Positions 7,882-29,869 of a stretch of 30,534 nt of DNA are shown piece by piece. Position 1 is the stretch's first letter. The number at the start of each line of letters is the position of its first letter. The position numbers and the translations under genes were made by a program. The DNA lies in IMG/VR virus record IMGVR_UViG_3300008218_000007, positions 1 through 30,534 of that record; one strand, 5' to 3'. The DNA comes from a virus. Under the pieces are notes generated by a model that was given only the letters and a program-made list of their open reading frames with translations, had not been told where the DNA came from and made no database searches.

Positions 7882-8520
7882 TTATGGGGCAAATAAATCC
7901 TGTTGTTCTACATCTAATTTTGTCCTAATTCCAAGCATAGAATTAAATATATGCAAACCAAGTTCAGGTTCTACACAATTATTAATTAATGTTCTTTTAT
8001 CTCCATTGTAATTATAAAAATTTTCAACATATATTCCCATCTCATCCATCTTTTTTGATAAAGTCATACCCTTATCATTTCTTACCTTTTTCTGTATGTC
8101 CATGTTGGTAATATTAAAATTTGACCATAGATAATGCCTTCCTGAAATCTGTGGTATTATTAGTGGATCATAATATGTCATTACATTTTCAATACAATAA
8201 TAACCATCAAAGAAAGTTTTTAATAATATTATTTCTTGGAATAATCCCATGTCGGGGTATTTTATTTTATTTCCCTTGATATTTAATAAATGATTCATTC
8301 TGCTATGGGTTGGACAGGGTGGTGATGACCATATAAAATCATATTCCTGAAAATGCTCTAATAAATATTCATGTGCATCACCAATTACCATCTTATCATC
8401 AGGAAAGAAGTCTTTATAGATTGCTGCAATATCAGGATTCAGTTCAACTGCTGTTACTTCTACCCCCCCCCATAACTTCCTGTTACCACCTATTCCTGCA
8501 TATAGATTTAATACTTTCAT
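7882..8520 (-). CDS. C5 cytosine DNA methyltransferase, short phage form
   Basis: With the chosen start the protein has 212 residues. Motif I is at 3-12 (VLNLYAGIGG), motif IV at 65-72 (SSPPCPTH, catalytic Cys69) and motif VI at 111-113 (ENV). GRHYLW at 127-132 sits where motif VIII is expected, and NSMLGIRTK near the C terminus fits motif X. It would methylate cytosine C5 from S-adenosylmethionine. There is little room for a target-recognition domain, so it is shorter than most stand-alone enzymes. I chose ATG 8520: it has TAGAGGAGAT just before it and overlaps the RusA stop as ATGA. A frame extension to 8583 has no such support. A run of nine G (8463-8471) codes for W17-G18-G19-V20 in frame, right after motif I. 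Confidence 0.85.
   Translation of the reverse strand: MKVLNLYAGIGGNRKLWGGVEVTAVELNPDIAAIYKDFFPDDKMVIGDAHEYLLEHFQEYDFIWSSPPCPTHSRMNHLLNIKGNKIKYPDMGLFQEIILLKTFFDGYYCIENVMTYYDPLIIPQISGRHYLWSNFNITNMDIQKKVRNDKGMTLSKKMDEMGIYVENFYNYNGDKRTLINNCVEPELGLHIFNSMLGIRTKLDVEQQDLFAP
8463..8471 (-). repeat. G9 homopolymer tract inside the methyltransferase gene
   Basis: Nine consecutive G on the coding strand lie about 50 bases into the gene. They are read in frame here. Any one-base change in length would truncate the enzyme after motif I. Confidence 0.85.
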
Positions 8521-8924
8521 ATCTCCTCTATTATTACCCTTGTTCTTGGAATCCCATATTTCTTTTCTGCCTGTAAAATACATATCTGACTGTCATCACA
8601 AATAAATCCGTGTTTTCCACTTATCAGGTCAAATAAATATTTGCAGAGATTGTCAATGTCAGGTTTAAAGCTGTGTAATTGTGGAGTTTTGTCTTTTAAC
8701 AAATGTTTGTATTTGCCTGTTCTAAAGTGATTTTTTGGTCTTTGCATATAGAACACCAATTTAATGCTAATATCCCCTGCAAGTGGCAATTTGGGGCAAA
8801 ACAGGGCAATCTGCAACCATGTTTGTTTCTTATCTTTGGAAGATGGGTCATACATTCTGCCATTTCTTGCTACCCGATGCCTCTGTTGGGGTTTAGGGTT
8901 GCCTGGTATGGTGAACTCAATCAT
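8517..8924 (-). CDS. rusA: RusA-type Holliday junction resolvase
   Basis: This protein has 135 residues, close to the usual RusA length. The N terminus 'IPGNPKPQQRHRVARNGRMY' and the core 'KPDIDNLCKYLFDL' with 'ICDDSQICILQAEKKYG' are characteristic. The expected catalytic acids are D89, D91 and D110/D111, with K95 nearby. It would cut four-way DNA junctions and resolve replication or recombination intermediates before packaging, as a dimer. It lies between the PP-loop enzyme and the methyltransferase, overlapping the first by eight bases and the second by four. Confidence 0.93.
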   Translation of the reverse strand: MIEFTIPGNPKPQQRHRVARNGRMYDPSSKDKKQTWLQIALFCPKLPLAGDISIKLVFYMQRPKNHFRTGKYKHLLKDKTPQLHSFKPDIDNLCKYLFDLISGKHGFICDDSQICILQAEKKYGIPRTRVIIEEI

Positions 8925-15145: not shown

Positions 15146-16222
15146 CTACCAGACTTCTCTAATCTTCATCTTGACAGAATATAAGTCTGGTGCTATTTGT
15201 TGGAAGCTAAAAGATTTTTGGTCAAATTTACAGATAGCGAAATTTGTATTATCATTTTTATCCGGCTGAAAAATGAAGGGTAATTGTCCACCATTAGTTT
15301 TGTGGATAACCTCACTATAAAAATAAGAAGTTCCAACTGGCTTTAATAGTGAATAAGCATCTTCCTGTGATGTTAATCCCCCTCCAGTAGTGCCATAATA
15401 ATAAGAACCTACATTGTGATCGTGGATGGAATCTTCATGGTATTGTATTGCTTCATAGTTTGTTAAAGTAGATATTTCTGGAAATATATCACTATCCTGA
15501 AGATAAGAAAACGATAAATCCCATATCCTTCTGCCACTACGAGAAAGTGCCTGATTCGTTGGAGTTCCTGAATATAATTCCCAAGCCCCTGCATCCCCCC
15601 ACATGGCAGGTTTTGTGTATTGATGCTTAACTAAATCAGAACCTCCTTTTGTGCGAATACGCCTTACCCCATCCATTTCTCGTGTCATTGTTAGCTTTAC
15701 TGGAGAATGTGGCATTGTATAGGTTTTTCCAAATACAAAACAACCAAATACCCCTGTAAATGCTTCTGCATCTGGTTCTCCCGATACAGTTCTAAAATAA
15801 GCAGATACATTTTCTCCCGAATAAGAAGAAAAATCTCCTGATAATGCAGTATGTGTATATATGGTAAATCCTTTATACTCAATAGTCTGATTAACAACAG
15901 GAGTTATAGCCGCATTATCTTCAGCCCCATAATCAGCATCCGCAGGGTTGTTCCCTTCAGCTGCTACAGTTCTTTTATTAGCAAGTTTCCACCTTTCATC
16001 AAGATTATGGTTTAATACTGCAAGAAAATTAACACCATACGCTCCATTAGGGGGGAGGATGGATGAACCCAAAAATTTGTATTCATAATTTTCTGGGATC
16101 GCAACCGAAATTGTTTCAATTGGACTAATGGTATGAAATCTTTTTACATTATATCCTAAAGATTTATACCAATCACCCCATGAAATATAAAATTTTGGTG
16201 TTCCTACATTTTGATATGGCAT
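15146..16222 (-). CDS. Tail-region virion protein, paralog 2
   Basis: This protein has 358 residues. It begins MPYQNVGTPKFYIS and shares blocks with the gene just upstream: 'GDAGAWELYSG', 'ALSRSGRRIWDLSFSY', 'HKTNGGQLPFIFQPD' and a C-terminal IREVW. The shared blocks are spread over the whole length, so it is a divergent tandem duplicate. It is last in the late operon, where side fibres, tip proteins or decoration are typical. It looks beta-rich and has no enzymatic motif. The ATG directly follows the preceding stop (TAAATG). Confidence 0.82.
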   Translation of the reverse strand: MPYQNVGTPKFYISWGDWYKSLGYNVKRFHTISPIETISVAIPENYEYKFLGSSILPPNGAYGVNFLAVLNHNLDERWKLANKRTVAAEGNNPADADYGAEDNAAITPVVNQTIEYKGFTIYTHTALSGDFSSYSGENVSAYFRTVSGEPDAEAFTGVFGCFVFGKTYTMPHSPVKLTMTREMDGVRRIRTKGGSDLVKHQYTKPAMWGDAGAWELYSGTPTNQALSRSGRRIWDLSFSYLQDSDIFPEISTLTNYEAIQYHEDSIHDHNVGSYYYGTTGGGLTSQEDAYSLLKPVGTSYFYSEVIHKTNGGQLPFIFQPDKNDNTNFAICKFDQKSFSFQQIAPDLYSVKMKIREVW

Positions 16223-17161
16223 TTACCAAACCTCCTCTATGGAAAGGGAAATATCATAGGTATTAAAAGAACTCTGAGTAGCCTTCAAACTGTTGTCTTT
16301 AAATTTTGCTATACAGAGCTGGTCGGGGTTGTTGTTGGAACTGTCCGGCTGGAATATAAAAGGCAGCGTTCCACCTAAGGTTTTATGCCACACCTGTGAG
16401 AAGAAATTATCATCAGTTAGAAGATTGTATTGGAAAGTAGTATTATCGGATAAATCACCCCCAATACCACCATCATATAAAGCAATGGCACTTTCAGATA
16501 GTGTATTGCCTACTGCTGTAGATAATGATTGATTACTTCCCCAAAGATCACCATCATCCATGAAGCTGAATTTCAAATCCCAAGTCCTACGACCACTCCG
16601 AGATAGTGCCGGGTTTCCACTACCAAGTTCCCAAGCACCCAAATCCCCCCATTTCGGAGGTTTGCTCCACATTGTGTTGCTCATAGATGAACCATTATGG
16701 GTAGTAAATTCCTTTGTTCCTCCATATTCCCGGCTCATAGTGAGAGAAAGATTGGGTGCGTTCATATCGTAGTAAGTGCCAACCAAAATTGAACCCACAT
16801 CACCAGTTACAGTTATCCCATCTGCGTCTGGTCGATTACCTGTATTTGCGATGCTAAAACCTTCAATAACCCCGTTTGTAAAATCTCCATTTATAATAGA
16901 AGGGTTTGCAGGAAAACCAGCAGAATCTATCACAATCCCATCTGTTTCATTATGCCCAAGAAGTGCTATATAGGCAGAGAGACCATGATATGAACCCATA
17001 GGTATCTCCCCTATAAAAGATGTTTCCCATGTACCAACAGTAGTTGGAACTACAGGAAGGGTTCTATAAACGGAAGGAAGGTTAGAAATTAATCCAACAG
17101 ATGCTGCATATTCAGGGATGTTTAAATAGAACCTCGGTGTGCCTACATTTTGATAACTCAT
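16223..17161 (-). CDS. Tail-region virion protein, paralog 1
   Basis: This protein has 312 residues and begins MSYQNVGTPRFYLN. Conserved blocks shared with the next gene are 'WGDLGAWELGSGNP', 'ALSRSGRRTWDLKFSF', 'HKTLGGTLPFIFQPD' and a final IEEVW. The central region (about 60-140) differs in length and sequence, so the pair probably has different surface loops or partners. It is likely a minor tail protein near the tip, judged by position after the hub and dockerin genes. No catalytic residues are recognised. Confidence 0.82.
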   Translation of the reverse strand: MSYQNVGTPRFYLNIPEYAASVGLISNLPSVYRTLPVVPTTVGTWETSFIGEIPMGSYHGLSAYIALLGHNETDGIVIDSAGFPANPSIINGDFTNGVIEGFSIANTGNRPDADGITVTGDVGSILVGTYYDMNAPNLSLTMSREYGGTKEFTTHNGSSMSNTMWSKPPKWGDLGAWELGSGNPALSRSGRRTWDLKFSFMDDGDLWGSNQSLSTAVGNTLSESAIALYDGGIGGDLSDNTTFQYNLLTDDNFFSQVWHKTLGGTLPFIFQPDSSNNNPDQLCIAKFKDNSLKATQSSFNTYDISLSIEEVW

Positions 17162-17802
17162 TATCTGCGAATTTTCCTTCTTGAACTTTTTCTTGCTTGT
17201 ATCTTTCTTTGTTTTCTCTGCTCAATAACACCATAAGGAAGTCCTGTGTTCTTGGTAGGCTTTCCAGTAGAATAATATAAATCCTGCGATTCTTCAGTAT
17301 GTTCTTTGCCTGTCATAGCAGCATTATCAGCTAAATGAATATGAAATGCACCATGATATAAACTGCCATCTTGCAAATATAACTCTGCATTATGAGTAGA
17401 AGTGTTCAAATTCTCCCAATGTGGCTGTTTTAAGATAGTTTTAGCAACCCTCCTACCCGATACATGGTTAGAGGATAAATCCTCGCTTTTAGTAGTCATA
17501 TCTTCACTCTTTGTATTTAAGAGTTCTGTGTAATCCATAACCCTGCGAATAGTAGTTGAAACTTTCTCTGAATTACTATTAACTACAAATGTAGATAATA
17601 TTTTTAATTCTCCTGTGTAATCAAATAAATCATTTAAAGTTCCCTCTCCTATTGGGAATATCATTATACCATTATTCTGATGTGTTATAACAAAAGAATC
17701 AGAAGTTTTATCTTCAATGTCTATTGCACCTCTGTATCTAATTTCAACTCCTCTCGCAGAGCCTTCGATTGTGCAGCTTCCATTTCCATAATATAATTTC
17801 AT
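17161..17802 (-). CDS. Virion-associated protein with YHIH-type segment
   Basis: This protein has 213 residues. The N-terminal part is beta-rich. Residues about 141-176 hold 'LYLQDGSLYHGAFHIH' and 'AAMTGKEHTEESQDLYY', a recurring virion-protein pattern (YHG-x-HIH...MTG-x-x-H) that I know only by recurrence in phage structural proteins. The C-terminal 20 residues are very basic (KQRKIQARKSSRRKIRR). The two parts are joined by a Ser/Thr-rich linker. It may be a small tail-associated or fibre-attachment protein. It overlaps the dockerin gene by four bases. Confidence 0.78.
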   Translation of the reverse strand: MKLYYGNGSCTIEGSARGVEIRYRGAIDIEDKTSDSFVITHQNNGIMIFPIGEGTLNDLFDYTGELKILSTFVVNSNSEKVSTTIRRVMDYTELLNTKSEDMTTKSEDLSSNHVSGRRVAKTILKQPHWENLNTSTHNAELYLQDGSLYHGAFHIHLADNAAMTGKEHTEESQDLYYSTGKPTKNTGLPYGVIEQRKQRKIQARKSSRRKIRR

Positions 17803-18359
17803 CTCTTCCCTTCTCCTGAAAGTATATAGTTGGCAAGGCTTACAATATCAAGAACATTATAATTGCCATCACCATTTAAATCACAGGGATACCCATTTTC
17901 AATATCTGAACAATTACCAGAGATAACACAATCAGCAAGAGCCACAACATCTAAAATATTATACTGCCCATCCCTATTAACATCACCAACATCGCTATAC
18001 CTATTAAAAGTATATATGATATTTCTATGCACATTAAGGGTTTCAAAATCAGATGTTGTTAAAGTAAAAGTATAAATGTAATTACGCATATCATAATCTT
18101 CCATCCCATTTACATTAAATACTATTACTGGAGTATTTTCTAAAAATGTTAAAAGCTGTGTATTGCCATCAGTTGTAATCTCAGCAGGATATTCAATTTT
18201 ATTAATGGTAATTTTAGCTTCTGTAATAGTAATTGTATCGCTTCGGGTTCTAATATATAAATCTGAAATAGAAAAATCACCATCTGTTATATCCCTGTTG
18301 TAAATTTCCTCCGATTCACCAACAATACCACCAACATTATATTCATATACATCAATCAT
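17799..18359 (-). CDS. Phage tail-region protein with C-terminal dockerin domain
   Basis: This protein has 186 residues. Residues about 1-120 are beta-rich and of unknown family. Residues about 126-184 form a type I dockerin-like domain with two calcium-binding F-hand repeats. Ligands D126, N128, D130, N134, D137 lie in GDVNRDGQYNILDVVALAD, and D160, N162, D164, N168, D171 in DLNGDGNYNVLDIVSLANY. C150 and C159 between the repeats could form a disulfide. Dockerins bind cohesins on bacterial surfaces and in secreted complexes. Here the domain may hold an adsorption or decoration protein on the virion or bind the host surface. It overlaps the large tail protein gene by eight bases and the YHIH gene by four. 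Confidence 0.85.
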   Translation of the reverse strand: MIDVYEYNVGGIVGESEEIYNRDITDGDFSISDLYIRTRSDTITITEAKITINKIEYPAEITTDGNTQLLTFLENTPVIVFNVNGMEDYDMRNYIYTFTLTTSDFETLNVHRNIIYTFNRYSDVGDVNRDGQYNILDVVALADCVISGNCSDIENGYPCDLNGDGNYNVLDIVSLANYILSGEGKR

Positions 18360-21042
18360 CTAATTGAAATAAATTAGTCATTGTTGCTTGGGAAAATGTT
18401 ATTTTGTAAGCAGCCCCACCTGCAAGTTCAGTTAAACCACCTTGCCACCCTGTACCTAAATTTTGTGCTACTGCACCTATACCTATTATTTCTATCAAAT
18501 TTTCCAGTTCAGGAAAATCAGTATATATATTTTCAAGAAGAACCCCATCCAGTTCAGATGAGGCGATAACATCATACCCTGTTTCAGCTTCAAATATGGT
18601 GTTCGCAAATTGGAACAGCCCCAAATCGTGCATCTGAATTGCCTCAAATTCACAAAATTCGAGTGTCTTGTTTGTGCTTATAATTAGGAAGTTTTTAAAA
18701 ACATTTTGCCCATTTACCTCTCCATCTGCTATATAATCAATCCCATAAGGATTAACTCCCCCAAGAATAGCATCAAAATCAACAAAATCTCCTATTTCTA
18801 AAAACATCATCTTTAAGGGTAATTTAATCTTTAGCTTCAGTTTTTGATTACAACTCCACAATAAATACCATTCTGCGAAAGCCTGTGCAGTATCGTGATC
18901 TCTTATGTATTTTCCCCTATCATCATCAATTATAAGGGTGCTGTCAGGGTGTATTAAATTCTCATTATCGTCAAATTCAGTAGGTATGGTAAATCCATAA
19001 TAACCATATTGATAAAGAGGAATAACATACTGTAGATCAGCCTCTACGCTATCATTAAATTCACCTCTTGCATAATCCCAATTATACTTAAATACAACCT
19101 TAGTATAAACATCCTCAATCTTACTGCGTGAAAAACTGAAATCAATACAGTCTGCTTCTTTGATCTGAAAATCTGATGTTCCACCATCTCTCGGTATTTC
19201 TGTAAATACAAAATCCCCCAAATTTGTAAAACGGGGCAGATATGGACTTGCAGATGCAATTCCCTCAATCAGTTTCTTGCTGGATATTTTGGAATCGACT
19301 GTGAAGTCATAATACCAATCATAAGTGCCTGTCTCATCTATCCCTGTAACACCAAGTTCATTTTCTAATATATGTGCAATAACTTCTGGTGCAGTTGGTG
19401 ATAAAAAGAAGTTGAATAATAAAGGTGTTATTGCCCTGCCTTTTACATTGGCATAGAAATCCATATTAAATAGATTGTCCATTAGCATCCAATGATCTAC
19501 TTCAACACCTTCAAATATTGTTTGTCCAGCCATTATAGCATAACCAGCATCTATTTGCATATAAAATAATAACTGTCCCACATTGCTAATCCGTATAGGA
19601 GTATCGCCACCATCTAATGAATTGTATGTAGGCTGTGCATCAGGAACCCAATTAGGACTTGCTTCTGTTCCTGCTCCTGACTGATTGTTCCATATTTTTG
19701 AATCGTAATCGCCAAGAGTATTGCCACCGAATCTCCACATTATGTTAACAAATGTTCCTGTCCATTGCACTTTATCATAAAAATTCACCCCGAATTTTGT
19801 ACGAATATATCCTGTATCTTCCTTATAAGAAGATTCAGATATGATGGGAATCTCCATAGTACATCCTACAAGAGTTTCTTCAAAGTGGATAGCACTTGTT
19901 TCCCACCATATATCAGTTCCTTCCCCAATTTCATCAAATATTTTACTCGTCTGATCCCAATCACCAGCTAAATTCTCCCTAAACAATGTACCTTTTATTG
20001 TAAAAGGAAAGTGTGAAAAATTTTCATCTGATACTGTGGCATAATATATTTGCCCACTACTATGGTCTATAGCTTTACCAGATTCTACTCTTAATGGATT
20101 TACTGATGATGGCGTTAGCGTTTCAAATCCTATAATTTCATTATTGGAAATAGGATTTGAACCTATACTTTCACTACCCGAACTATATTCATATACTGAT
20201 TGGAGTAAAATACTTTTACCTGATATTATATATTGTACAACATCTCCATACTCCACACCAGATTGAAATGTCACCTCTTGTATTGCTGTGGGAATATTGA
20301 TATATGATCCTTCTTTTTCTACATATAAAGGATAAGTTCCTACAAAACTAATACTATCATCAATGTCTGGGATTATATCAATTTCGCCTTCTAATAATGC
20401 TCCACTATCCAATAATGGAGCCGAAGCTATTACACACGGACTTCTATCAACATGACCATATACCATTGGTTTCGGTTTGTTTTTATATTTAGCCACAGCG
20501 TTACCCCCTAAATTAGCAAGTGGCAAATCCTTATGAAGTGTTGATTGACTGCGATCTTCAACAACAAGGCGAATTTTCTCATCTGTCATATCGTATCTTC
20601 TGATAGTGCCGAAATATATTTGAAAAGCAGCACCCTCCCTTCCTGCGTCATCATAACTACTATAACCTGAATCTACTTGGATTATATCATCCACGCCCGG
20701 AGATAACCAATATATTCTAACTTCTGTATTAATTAATGATGAATCTCCAATAAGTTCAGAGAACCTAACACCCTCATAAGGGAAATTACTAATATCAATA
20801 TTTACAGAAGAAATTTTATAATTCCGTTTTTCAATATCAATGGATTCTTTTAGCGATGGGACATTTAATAGTAATGGTAAAGTTTGCTGTGATCCATATT
20901 TATCTTGCCATTGGTTTGTGCTTATCCATATTCTACTGGTTGTCCATGTGCTGCCCACTCTTGTTCCAATTAATATAACTGGAAATAATGCAGTATCACG
21001 CCCTGCAATATCGTTCTTGAAATTAGCCGGTAAACTAAGCAT
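18352..21042 (-). CDS. Large tail hub/tip protein
   Basis: This protein has 896 residues, the largest in the genome, and directly follows the tape measure (one-base overlap). The N-terminal part has 'YKISSVNIDISNFPYEGVRF' and 'FQIYFGTIRRYDMTDEKIRL', similar to the distal-tail/hub start of marine-type siphophages by pattern. A later segment with 'KEADCIDFSFSRSKIEDVYT' resembles central tail-tip (J-like or hub) proteins. It would form the tail tip, anchor fibres and help with host recognition or ejection. No hydrolase motif is obvious. An alternative is a combined Dit-Tal fusion, since no separate distal tail gene is seen. Confidence 0.82.
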   Translation of the reverse strand: MLSLPANFKNDIAGRDTALFPVILIGTRVGSTWTTSRIWISTNQWQDKYGSQQTLPLLLNVPSLKESIDIEKRNYKISSVNIDISNFPYEGVRFSELIGDSSLINTEVRIYWLSPGVDDIIQVDSGYSSYDDAGREGAAFQIYFGTIRRYDMTDEKIRLVVEDRSQSTLHKDLPLANLGGNAVAKYKNKPKPMVYGHVDRSPCVIASAPLLDSGALLEGEIDIIPDIDDSISFVGTYPLYVEKEGSYINIPTAIQEVTFQSGVEYGDVVQYIISGKSILLQSVYEYSSGSESIGSNPISNNEIIGFETLTPSSVNPLRVESGKAIDHSSGQIYYATVSDENFSHFPFTIKGTLFRENLAGDWDQTSKIFDEIGEGTDIWWETSAIHFEETLVGCTMEIPIISESSYKEDTGYIRTKFGVNFYDKVQWTGTFVNIMWRFGGNTLGDYDSKIWNNQSGAGTEASPNWVPDAQPTYNSLDGGDTPIRISNVGQLLFYMQIDAGYAIMAGQTIFEGVEVDHWMLMDNLFNMDFYANVKGRAITPLLFNFFLSPTAPEVIAHILENELGVTGIDETGTYDWYYDFTVDSKISSKKLIEGIASASPYLPRFTNLGDFVFTEIPRDGGTSDFQIKEADCIDFSFSRSKIEDVYTKVVFKYNWDYARGEFNDSVEADLQYVIPLYQYGYYGFTIPTEFDDNENLIHPDSTLIIDDDRGKYIRDHDTAQAFAEWYLLWSCNQKLKLKIKLPLKMMFLEIGDFVDFDAILGGVNPYGIDYIADGEVNGQNVFKNFLIISTNKTLEFCEFEAIQMHDLGLFQFANTIFEAETGYDVIASSELDGVLLENIYTDFPELENLIEIIGIGAVAQNLGTGWQGGLTELAGGAAYKITFSQATMTNLFQLDD

Positions 21043-22730
21043 CAGCTAATTCCAAAATCCGTGCCACGCCTGATTGCTTCCTTGATGTTTTCAGCAAGTT
21101 CTCCTTCAACGAAATCCTGCGATAAAACATTTCCTGATACATTTACAGTTACAGAACCTCCTCCTGCTGGGCCATCAATATTTGGTGATGAAAGTGGTGT
21201 AATTCCGATATGTTCTGGACCAGCTTCCCCTGCTAATATCATAGTTGGCTGTGAAACTACTTTATCCATTCCTGTTGCAGCCTTTTCAATCATTTTCACA
21301 TTAGCAAGTCCTGCACCAAGGGCAGCAACAGCAGCAGTAGCGCCAAGTGCTGGACCAACAACAGGAATACCAGCCATAGCTTTAAAAGCAGCATTTGCTG
21401 AAGCATAAGCATCTACAAGAGCCTGAACCTGGGCTGCCCTTTTCCCTGCTTTTTCCATTTCAGGGTATGCTTTGCCCATAGTTTGTATATTCTGCCCAAA
21501 TTCTTTAGCAGCATCTTTTCTTTCTTTTTTAAGTTTAGCTTCAGTTGCTATGGCATCTTCCTGTGCTAAAGAAGCACTAAATATTTGTTCAGGGATTTTT
21601 TGAAGCGTATCTAAATATTCTTGGGCTGTATCATTCAATATTGCCATAGATACAATTATTGGGTCAGTATTTTCTGCTGCTACTAATATATCCTCCATAT
21701 ATCTTTCTATTGATACATTCAATCTATTTAATGAACTTCTTGTAAACCCCATACCATCAGTCAATTTTAAGAAAATATTATCTGCACCATTCTGCTCTAT
21801 CATTTCCTCCATTTCTTCTCTTAAATCCATCATATTCATAATCAAAGATTGATTTACAGTATCAGTTTGACCCATTTGCCTTGAAATCTCATCAAACACT
21901 TGCATCGCCCCACCAACCCTATTTACTTCACTATCTAATCTTGCCATTGCTTCAGCAGAAGAATCTACACCATCTGCCCATTCTAAAAATGCTTCAGCGC
22001 CCTCCATAAATGATGTTAGTGCTTCAGCAACCTTAATGACATGAGGTGCTAACATATCCCCAAATTTAATTGCAAGATCACCAGTAGCAGTAGCAACCTG
22101 TGCAATAGAATCTTTTGTAGTTAGTTGTTCTTCTCCTAATTGTGCAACAAGACCATTAGCCTCTCTCATAGCAGCATTTACAAAGGCAGTTTTCCTTTCC
22201 TGGTCTGTAAGTTTAGAGGCTGTTGTTCCAATAGAATCTGCATAGTCCTTATAAGCCTTATTGGTATCTACCATAATACCAAGATTATCAAGCATCAGTT
22301 TTGATTGCCGACCAAGACCAGTAACAAGTGATTCAACAGCCTGAACAGTATCAACACCAAGTGCTGCCCCAAGCCTTTGTGCCACATCAAACATATCTGC
22401 CATCTGATCCTCTGAATCAGTAATGCCAAGAAGCATAGCATTATTAGCCTGTTTCATCAAAGTAAGGCTATCTATTGTTCCATCAGTTGCATCCTTGAAT
22501 TTGTTAAATGCAGCAGTTGAAAATCCTTGAGATTTAGCAAGATTATCAAATCCCCTTTTGACACCCTCCATCTCTGCCGACATTTGGATAGATTTTTTTA
22601 ATCCTTGCATAACAGCAACAACAGAAACAGCCTGAAGTGCCATCATTTTCATTGAACCTGTTAAGGATTTTATATTTCCAGCAGCCTTTTTAGCACCCTT
22701 CTCTTTAACATTTATGAAAAAATTAGGCAT
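21042..22730 (-). CDS. Tape measure protein
   Basis: This protein has 562 residues and is mostly helical. Ala-rich and hydrophobic segments lie at about 445-480 (AGIPVVGPALGATAAVAALG), and a C-terminal 'ILAGEAGPEHIGITPL' is typical of tape measure proteins. The middle has coiled coils and a Lys-rich part (KLKKERKDAAKEFGQN). It determines tail length: at roughly 0.15 nm per residue the tail would be near 80-85 nm, a short siphovirus tail. It follows the frameshifted chaperone pair, overlapping the GT frame by eight bases. Confidence 0.92.
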   Translation of the reverse strand: MPNFFINVKEKGAKKAAGNIKSLTGSMKMMALQAVSVVAVMQGLKKSIQMSAEMEGVKRGFDNLAKSQGFSTAAFNKFKDATDGTIDSLTLMKQANNAMLLGITDSEDQMADMFDVAQRLGAALGVDTVQAVESLVTGLGRQSKLMLDNLGIMVDTNKAYKDYADSIGTTASKLTDQERKTAFVNAAMREANGLVAQLGEEQLTTKDSIAQVATATGDLAIKFGDMLAPHVIKVAEALTSFMEGAEAFLEWADGVDSSAEAMARLDSEVNRVGGAMQVFDEISRQMGQTDTVNQSLIMNMMDLREEMEEMIEQNGADNIFLKLTDGMGFTRSSLNRLNVSIERYMEDILVAAENTDPIIVSMAILNDTAQEYLDTLQKIPEQIFSASLAQEDAIATEAKLKKERKDAAKEFGQNIQTMGKAYPEMEKAGKRAAQVQALVDAYASANAAFKAMAGIPVVGPALGATAAVAALGAGLANVKMIEKAATGMDKVVSQPTMILAGEAGPEHIGITPLSSPNIDGPAGGGSVTVNVSGNVLSQDFVEGELAENIKEAIRRGTDFGIS

Positions 22731-28828: not shown

Positions 28829-29869
28829 CTATTCTCCTGTCACAATAGTTGCTGGAAGTGCTGTTGCCTTAACAATGATTGGTGGATAATGAAACCCTGT
28901 TGTTCTATTTCTTCCATGCCTTATAGCAGATGTGCCTGAAATTGTTTCTGCTGCAGCTATCCATCTTTCATATTCTGTTCCCGGTGTTAATCCTGTATTT
29001 ACAAAAGAAATATAAGTCATATTTGCATCAGTTTCATCTGAACTTTGTGCCCCTGCATCATAAGTATGGGTTTCACCTATCTCATTAAAAGAAGCATTGT
29101 CAGACAAAGCAAATTCAAGTGTTCTACTATTTGCATATAATGAGCATAACATAGATATTTCAACATTCCCCGATGGTGGTGCTGTAAAAGTTACAGAAAC
29201 ATCTGTTCCCTGTGCAGTTTGTAGAACAGTCATTGTCGCATCAGGATTTATTTCAGCATGACCTGTTGTGGTGCTATCATTTGAAATTCTTGTATATCCA
29301 AGTATCATTCCAGCATAAGTATCTGCAAATTTTGTTCCTGCCTTTTTCATTTCAAATACACCAGTATGAGAATCTAAGGTAATATCCCCATCAATATCCA
29401 GAGTTAAATCAGCTCCTTCACCACCACCATCATTTGTAGATATGGTTGATAATCCTGCTGCAGTAGTATTTATTTCCATCCTATCTGCACTTGGGTCGCC
29501 ACCCGGCTCATATAATGTTAATGTAGTATTTGTACCATCAGATGACCATCGAGAAGCTATTTTGTCATCATTATCTACGAGTGATACTCTTGGAGAATCA
29601 TTTCCACTCACAAGTTCTATATCTGTTGTAGCATTCCCTTGTATTTTTAAAGTTCCATCTTTTGCTATATCACCACCAATATCCAAATCACCAGTAATAT
29701 CCAAATCACCACCAATATCTAAATCACCAGTAATATCCAAATCACCATTAATTCTTGCACCATTTCCATGCTGTGCAGTTTCAATAGCAGTAGATATGCC
29801 CCCTACTTTAATAGGGCGTAAGTTCTCATCCACAGGATGCCCTTCTTGTAATTTTACATCATTTGGCAT
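28829..29869 (-). CDS. Virion protein with hexapeptide (beta-helix-like) repeats
   Basis: This protein has 346 residues. Residues about 40-68 contain repeats of the form GDLDIT/GDLDIG (four to five units), a left-handed beta-helix-like pattern. A beta-rich body follows. The C-terminal third (about 245-346) looks like a fibronectin- or Ig-like domain (DAGAQSSDETDANMTYISF; TPGTEYERWIAA). This suggests a fibre or surface decoration protein. It overlaps the preceding gene by 11 bases. Confidence 0.78.
   Translation of the reverse strand: MPNDVKLQEGHPVDENLRPIKVGGISTAIETAQHGNGARINGDLDITGDLDIGGDLDITGDLDIGGDIAKDGTLKIQGNATTDIELVSGNDSPRVSLVDNDDKIASRWSSDGTNTTLTLYEPGGDPSADRMEINTTAAGLSTISTNDGGGEGADLTLDIDGDITLDSHTGVFEMKKAGTKFADTYAGMILGYTRISNDSTTTGHAEINPDATMTVLQTAQGTDVSVTFTAPPSGNVEISMLCSLYANSRTLEFALSDNASFNEIGETHTYDAGAQSSDETDANMTYISFVNTGLTPGTEYERWIAAAETISGTSAIRHGRNRTTGFHYPPIIVKATALPATIVTGE
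29669..29758 (-). repeat. Tandem 18-bp repeat coding for GDLDIT/GDLDIG
   Basis: Five consecutive 18-base units (about ATCACCACCAATATCCAA or ATCACCAGTAATATCCAA on the plus strand) run from 29669, the fifth only partly conserved. Units alternate between two forms, giving a 36-base higher-order period. They code for hexapeptides GDLDIT and GDLDIG in the fibre-like protein. Nearly identical codons imply recent copy-number change. Confidence 0.9.

Follow-up and report, generated by a model that had tools for sequence, protein, structure and literature searches.

The dockerin encoded in the window, the linear 30.5-kb IMG/VR record IMGVR_UViG_3300008218_000007 analysed here over its whole length of 30,534 nucleotides, is a genuine type I-like domain with two complete F-hands, and forms a constant terminal part of the tail tip throughout a family of uncultured marine viruses. 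In these viruses it stands directly before the gene of a second domain, here called X, and the same pair of domains is found in secreted proteins of Candidatus Neomarinimicrobiota (SAR406). Dockerins are known for anchoring bacterial enzymes to cohesins; SAR406 is an abundant, uncultured ocean lineage. We suggest that the virus borrows the protein-docking system of its probable host, either for constructing its tail tip or for attaching to cells.

The dockerin domain and its calcium loops

The initial annotation had recognised a type I-like dockerin at the C terminus of a 186-residue protein of the tail module, in the interval 17808-17984 of the minus strand, which corresponds to residues 126-184 of the 186-aa open reading frame. 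The gene and its parts are the following:

17799..18359 (-), dockerin gene, 186 aa, N-terminal beta-sandwich followed by a C-terminal dockerin, tail-tip protein
17991..18359 (-), N-terminal domain, residues 1-123, predicted beta-sandwich, Ig/CopC-like at low TM-scores
17811..17990 (-), dockerin type I domain, residues 124-183, from Pfam PF00404, PDB matches and the helices of the model
17949..17984 (-), F-hand calcium loop 1, DVNRDGQYNILD, residues 126-137, read from the sequence
17847..17882 (-), F-hand calcium loop 2, DLNGDGNYNVLD, residues 160-171, read from the sequence

The dockerin HMM search that had been proposed as a check gave a match of the Pfam Dockerin_1 model (PF00404) over residues 125-180, with 34.2 bits (E 3e-8) against a curated cut-off of 22.9, and the top PDB match of the domain was the type I dockerin of CelS (2mte/1daq, E 2.5e-4); the domain is thus confirmed well above chance. 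D1, N3, D5, G6, N9 and D12 are present in both loops, as expected from the description of two F-hand repeats with every ligand in place. In the AlphaFold2 model of the 186-aa protein (mean pLDDT 72) one helix is predicted after each loop, at residues 135-147 and 169-181, and a beta-sandwich spans residues 29-117, for which Foldseek searches of the PDB with the whole model returned weak Ig/CopC-like matches. As shown by alignment, the N-terminal domain (residues 1-123) is homologous to the region preceding the dockerin in relatives, e.g., L010 and L021. The best structural match to the whole model in BFVD was an unnamed viral protein of 222 aa (UniProt A0A516LK02, E 6e-8, TM 0.48).

To see how far the ligands are kept in homologs, 52 loops were counted from 27 viral dockerins, using a pattern that demanded D1 and D/N12 and from which two degenerate loops escaped. 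Positions 1, 5 and 12 are acidic or Asn in every one of the 52 loops and position 9 always has a permitted residue, where positions 1 and 12 are not independent evidence because the pattern itself required them; D or N was found at position 3 in 49 loops and G6 in 43, so that the ligands proved to be conserved, as the initial annotation needed them to be. Moreover, the comparison of the window with L010 gave a dN of 0.25 and a dS of 0.66 across the dockerin and, therefore, purifying selection acts on this domain. Positions 10-11 and 17-18 of the F-hand, the usual recognition positions of type I dockerins, are occupied in the viral domains by the VL/IL and AN/VN of the host dockerins described below.

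The tail-tip setting

The dockerin gene is part of a run of genes on the minus strand, in which the following features were identified:

21042..22730 (-), tail length tape-measure protein, 562 aa (phrog_3779, 4.6e-15; phrog_2854, 4.4e-11), which marks the tail module
18352..21042 (-), tail-tip hub, similar to lambda gpJ and T5 pb3, 896 aa, from Foldseek and an alignment of 12 orthologs
17799..17802 (-), ATGA overlap of the dockerin stop codon TGA with the X start codon ATG, read from the sequence
17161..17802 (-), X protein, 213 aa, an N-terminal X domain and a C-terminal region with a YHxH / MTGKEHT motif
17533..17799 (-), X domain, residues 2-90, from a host-only HMM (i-Evalue 2.6e-11) and hhalign (99.2%)
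16223..17161 (-), structural paralog of 312 aa, downstream of X, whose counterpart in L022 contains a second dockerin
15146..16222 (-), 358-aa paralog of the 312-aa protein, conserved in relatives

We place the dockerin at the tail tip because its gene follows the tape measure and because of the Foldseek matches of the hub, the latter obtained from a low-confidence model. The 896-aa hub had no sequence-family match; the top 11 Foldseek matches of its low-pLDDT model were all siphophage tail-tip proteins, with those of Sf11, T5, lambda and DT57C ranking first (E 2.7e-11 to 1.4e-7), and in gene order and predicted fold it corresponds to the gpJ/Tal/pb3 hubs of siphophages. This agrees with the earlier assignment of the dockerin protein to the tail module. 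The end of the hub gene is overlapped by the dockerin gene; in other relatives, the dockerin and X genes either overlap briefly or lie a few bases apart.

Elsewhere in the window, a gene similar to C-5 cytosine DNA methylases (7882-8583) adjoins the terminase genes, and a 346-aa protein (28829-29869) with weak fn3-like matches contains the short tandem repeat DITGDLDIGGDLDITGDLDIGGD near its N-terminus.

Distribution among uncultured viruses

The dockerin and the X gene were found together from either side. A scan of IMG/VR with an alignment of the 213-aa X protein, blind to dockerins, retrieved 15 loci, and all 15 records carry a dockerin over the Pfam cut-off directly before the X gene. Conversely, when only the dockerins served as query, without regard to the X gene, 24 loci were retrieved, each of them with the X gene; six were known records and the other 18 were new, all in the order hub, dockerin, X gene. 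The arrangement recurs in L002 and L003, identical contigs that come from other samples, as well as in diverged viruses. A small separate gene encodes the dockerin in the window, L010, L027, L028 and L029; in the other records the domain forms the C-terminal end of the hub. The search for neighbouring homologs in related viruses, one of the checks initially proposed, thus revealed a feature of the hub in the whole family, and the dockerin as one half of a dockerin-X unit of the host; both had been overlooked by the initial annotation, which was right about the dockerin itself.

Among the records with no dockerin match, L005-L007 end before that place, and L012 and L013 share with the X protein only its C-terminal 37 residues. 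L157 and L158, which come from two genomes of the Neomarinimicrobiota set, contain homologous tail modules with neither dockerin nor X. In INPHARED (50,697 phage records) the hub and the X protein found no relative, and the dockerin only two weak matches to fecal contigs (E 0.09 and 0.06).

Some further features were observed in single records. In L022 (9215-11032) a second dockerin is inserted within the structural paralog corresponding to the window gene 16223-17161, and the hubs of L019, L020, L021, L022, L023, L024 and L025 contain, ahead of the dockerin, Cys-rich repeats that are host-like (DECGVCGGD, GCxDxxAxNYDPxA). The protein at L012:7086-8117, which resembles phage head-maturation proteases of the XkdF type, has nothing in common with the viral X protein except the motif LMTGKEHTEESQYLYH at the C-terminus, which may serve both proteins as an assembly tag.

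Domain X and the dockerin-X unit of the probable host

When the viral X protein was used as query across Neomarinimicrobiota, host matches covered only its first ~90 residues. They lie inside secreted proteins, where X comes after the dockerin and before a type IX sorting domain, and no prophage was found among the matches of the X gene in host genomes. An HMM built from eight host X sequences alone detected every viral X (i-Evalues from 6.5e-11 to 1.2e-14 in the first set; 2.6e-11 for the X open reading frame of the window), and the hhalign comparison of host with viral X gave a probability of 99.2%. The dockerin stands directly before X in 23 of the 24 host open reading frames bearing X, the remaining one being cut by the end of its locus. 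At E <= 1e-5, X is present in 52 of 245 Neomarinimicrobiota genomes, mostly the dockerin-richest. Since X directly follows the dockerin in host proteins, the virus carries the dockerin-X unit of the host, divided between two genes that abut or overlap.

The ~90-aa domain X has no Pfam name (e.g., L122-L131), and no Pfam match, the cohesin family PF00963 included, was found over X in five host proteins bearing it or in the viral X protein. Host X compared with host cohesins by hhalign reached 94.7% (score 46), and a combined X alignment scored 36.2 against cohesins, where the maximum of 150 column shuffles was 18.8; on the same comparison the sorting domain scored 23.0 and the N-terminal beta domain 10.3. 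Viral X alone reached only 11% against cohesins, and a PDB profile search with host X returned no cohesin and nothing relevant. The cohesin-likeness of X is, therefore, suggestive, given that Pfam makes no cohesin call and viral X alone is not significant.

Neomarinimicrobiota as the probable host

The initial annotation had expected a host that uses such repeats in its secreted proteins, and Neomarinimicrobiota fit this expectation. When 84,980 species genomes of bacteria and archaea were scanned with the viral-type dockerin pattern, for which the narrower dockerin alignment A3 was used, 24 loci were retrieved; 22 belong to Candidatus Neomarinimicrobiota and the other two to a Myxococcota bin. 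The host dockerins are up to 84% identical to the viral ones over 61 aa. Five Neomarinimicrobiota genomes contain from 15 to 67 dockerin matches each, and 151 of the phylum's 245 genomes encode dockerins. The search for cohesins had a divided outcome: none was found in 20 viral records (PF00963, E <= 1), but the candidate host genomes contain them in 151 of 245 cases, 136 of which are over the cut-off. A host protein of particular relevance is:

L116:5215-6027 (+), 253-aa cohesin protein, found also in L117, L118, L119 and L120, adjoining murA and, where the contig continues, trkA/trkH

This protein, conserved in five genomes, has a signal-peptide-like N-terminus, a single cohesin-like domain (20.5 bits in L116, under the Pfam cut-off of 24.1) and a type IX sorting domain; SprA of the type IX translocon was detected in four of five genomes.

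Viruses in Marinimicrobia genomes have already been reported (PMC4533152). As a prophage in Neomarinimicrobiota genomes, the hub gene gave only two distant matches (L157 and L158, 28-30% identity), in GC-rich contigs (59.1% and 52.8%, respectively) that are possibly misbinned. The GC content of the virus (36%) agrees with that of the host loci (33-42%), an agreement that is weak as host evidence. Mainly because of the shared dockerin-X module itself, we consider Neomarinimicrobiota the probable host of these viruses.

Different histories of dockerin and X

The two halves of the unit do not seem to share the same history. In the tree of X all 27 viral sequences lie on one side of one branch, with a support of only 42, and a single viral clade was not rejected. 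In the tree of the dockerins, instead, the viral sequences are scattered among those of the host, with 16 changes, and one viral clade was rejected (AU p = 0.0135); this scattering may partly be noise because the alignment has 61 columns, most branches are weakly supported and the AU test was run on a quick tree. The median identity of a viral dockerin to the nearest host dockerin is 64%, and that of host dockerins among themselves 61%, although the host loci in this comparison were partly picked by dockerin similarity. The corresponding values for X are 35% between virus and host and 51% among hosts. Moreover, dockerin and X distances are correlated with r = 0.74 in hosts and 0.29 in viruses. 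The scattered, host-close dockerins and their weak co-divergence with X point to an exchange of the viral dockerins with those of the host, or to a selection to resemble them.

How the tail-tip dockerin could work

We predict that the tail-tip dockerin attaches in a calcium-dependent manner to a dockerin-binding protein of the host surface, a reading that may prove right or wrong with about equal chance and that we favour over a joint within the virion. An ancestral virus would have taken over the dockerin-X unit of the host and split it across two adjacent genes; X would then have been inherited vertically, and the dockerin repeatedly exchanged with host dockerins or kept similar to them. The calcium-bound dockerin, exposed on the tail tip, would dock onto a dockerin-binding surface protein, e.g., the type IX-sorted cohesin proteins, imitating the dockerin-tagged exoproteins of the host and serving as an attachment (receptor-binding) module, while X would probably pack against the dockerin and mount it on the tail. 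We favour a partner outside the virion because the dockerin tracks the host, its recognition residues are host-like and its C-terminal place on the tail tip would be exposed. Against an outside partner stands that dockerin and X, always encoded next to each other, would also suit a joint within the virion. Plausible candidate partners, from the sequence comparisons, are both the 253-aa host protein with cohesin and sorting domain and the X domain encoded in the next gene of the virus. Type I dockerins possess two similar binding faces and, thus, the two partnerships could both hold.

A reading that deserves serious attention, even if we would sooner expect it to fail, is that the C-terminal dockerin of the hub binds X, a shortened cohesin-like domain, and so tethers the product of the next gene to the tail tip in a calcium-dependent manner. 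Dockerin and X lie side by side in all records and are fused in host proteins, a Rosetta-stone pattern from which a contact between the two is predicted; in addition, the two homologous tail modules that are devoid of the dockerin are also devoid of X, the scores of host X and of the combined X alignment against cohesins go in the same direction, and a Pfam cohesin is missing from the 20 viral records. However, the score of viral X alone against cohesins and the PDB search with the host X profile do not help this reading, and the weak co-divergence of viral dockerin and X, together with the host-like dockerins, suits an outside partner better. A combined scheme, in which tailed viruses use the host-derived dockerin-X unit as a calcium-dependent joint of the tail tip, with X as the divergent cohesin-like partner, and possibly also swap partners with host surface cohesins during attachment, appears doubtful to us.

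It is unlikely that the dockerin and X are passive passengers, i.e., calcium-stabilised cap domains taken from host secreted proteins, which would bind nothing specifically and simply give the hub a stable end. Tail proteins do often acquire beta-sandwich and repeat domains, and the Cys-rich repeats before the dockerin in the hubs of relatives are host-like, but both calcium loops, the strict order of dockerin and X and the host-like residues are kept in 27 distinct viruses. Finally, viral and host dockerins are alike and repeated, a setting that would allow a host fragment to be misassembled or misbinned into a viral contig, but such an artefact is ruled out by the same arrangement in the independent contigs L002 and L003 and in diverged viruses, and by the purifying selection on the domain.

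If true, the preferred reading of a dockerin docking onto the host surface would provide a concrete and testable mechanism of attachment, or of assembly, for the viruses of SAR406, and the succession of dockerin and X a sequence signature for assigning viruses to this phylum. It also draws attention to the large repertoire of dockerins and cohesins in Neomarinimicrobiota: in the open-access literature searched, no paper combined dockerins with Marinimicrobia or SAR406.

Comparison with known systems

Dockerins, type IX-secreted proteins and tail-tip hubs are all known; their combination was not found in the literature searched or in INPHARED, and none of the open-access papers on dockerins and phages, tails or viromes, screened by title and abstract, presents a dockerin as a virion module. 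Gene 40 of VvAW1 was reported to resemble a 'dockerin type I cellulosome protein' in a BLASTP comparison, and is not described there as a tail-tip module (PMC3558961). A non-cellulosomal system with many dockerin proteins and few cohesins is described in the non-cellulolytic ANME archaea, in which dockerins and cohesins are reported as features separate from the phage-like translocation structures and are not on a phage (PMC9012536).

The viral domain shares with the cellulosomal type I dockerins (PF00404; Clostridium thermocellum CelS, 1daq/2mte) the two F-hand loops with their helices, the length of ~57 residues and the C-terminal position. It differs from them in being carried by a tail-tip protein rather than a secreted enzyme, with no scaffoldin and a putative cohesin binding, and loop positions 10-11 are IL/VL in viral and Neomarinimicrobiota dockerins and ST in CelS. 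As to the hub, it resembles those of lambda gpJ, T5 pb3 and Sf11 in its position after the tape measure and by Foldseek, but it has no sequence-family match and bears a dockerin at its end or in the next gene. The Neomarinimicrobiota proteins with dockerin, X and type IX sorting domain (TIGR04183/PF18962) have the same order of domains, similar linkers (e.g., NCGG at the end of the dockerin) and dockerins of up to 84% identity; in the host, however, these domains form one polypeptide that ends with the sorting domain, whereas in the virus they are distributed over two genes, the sorting domain is absent and a different region follows X.
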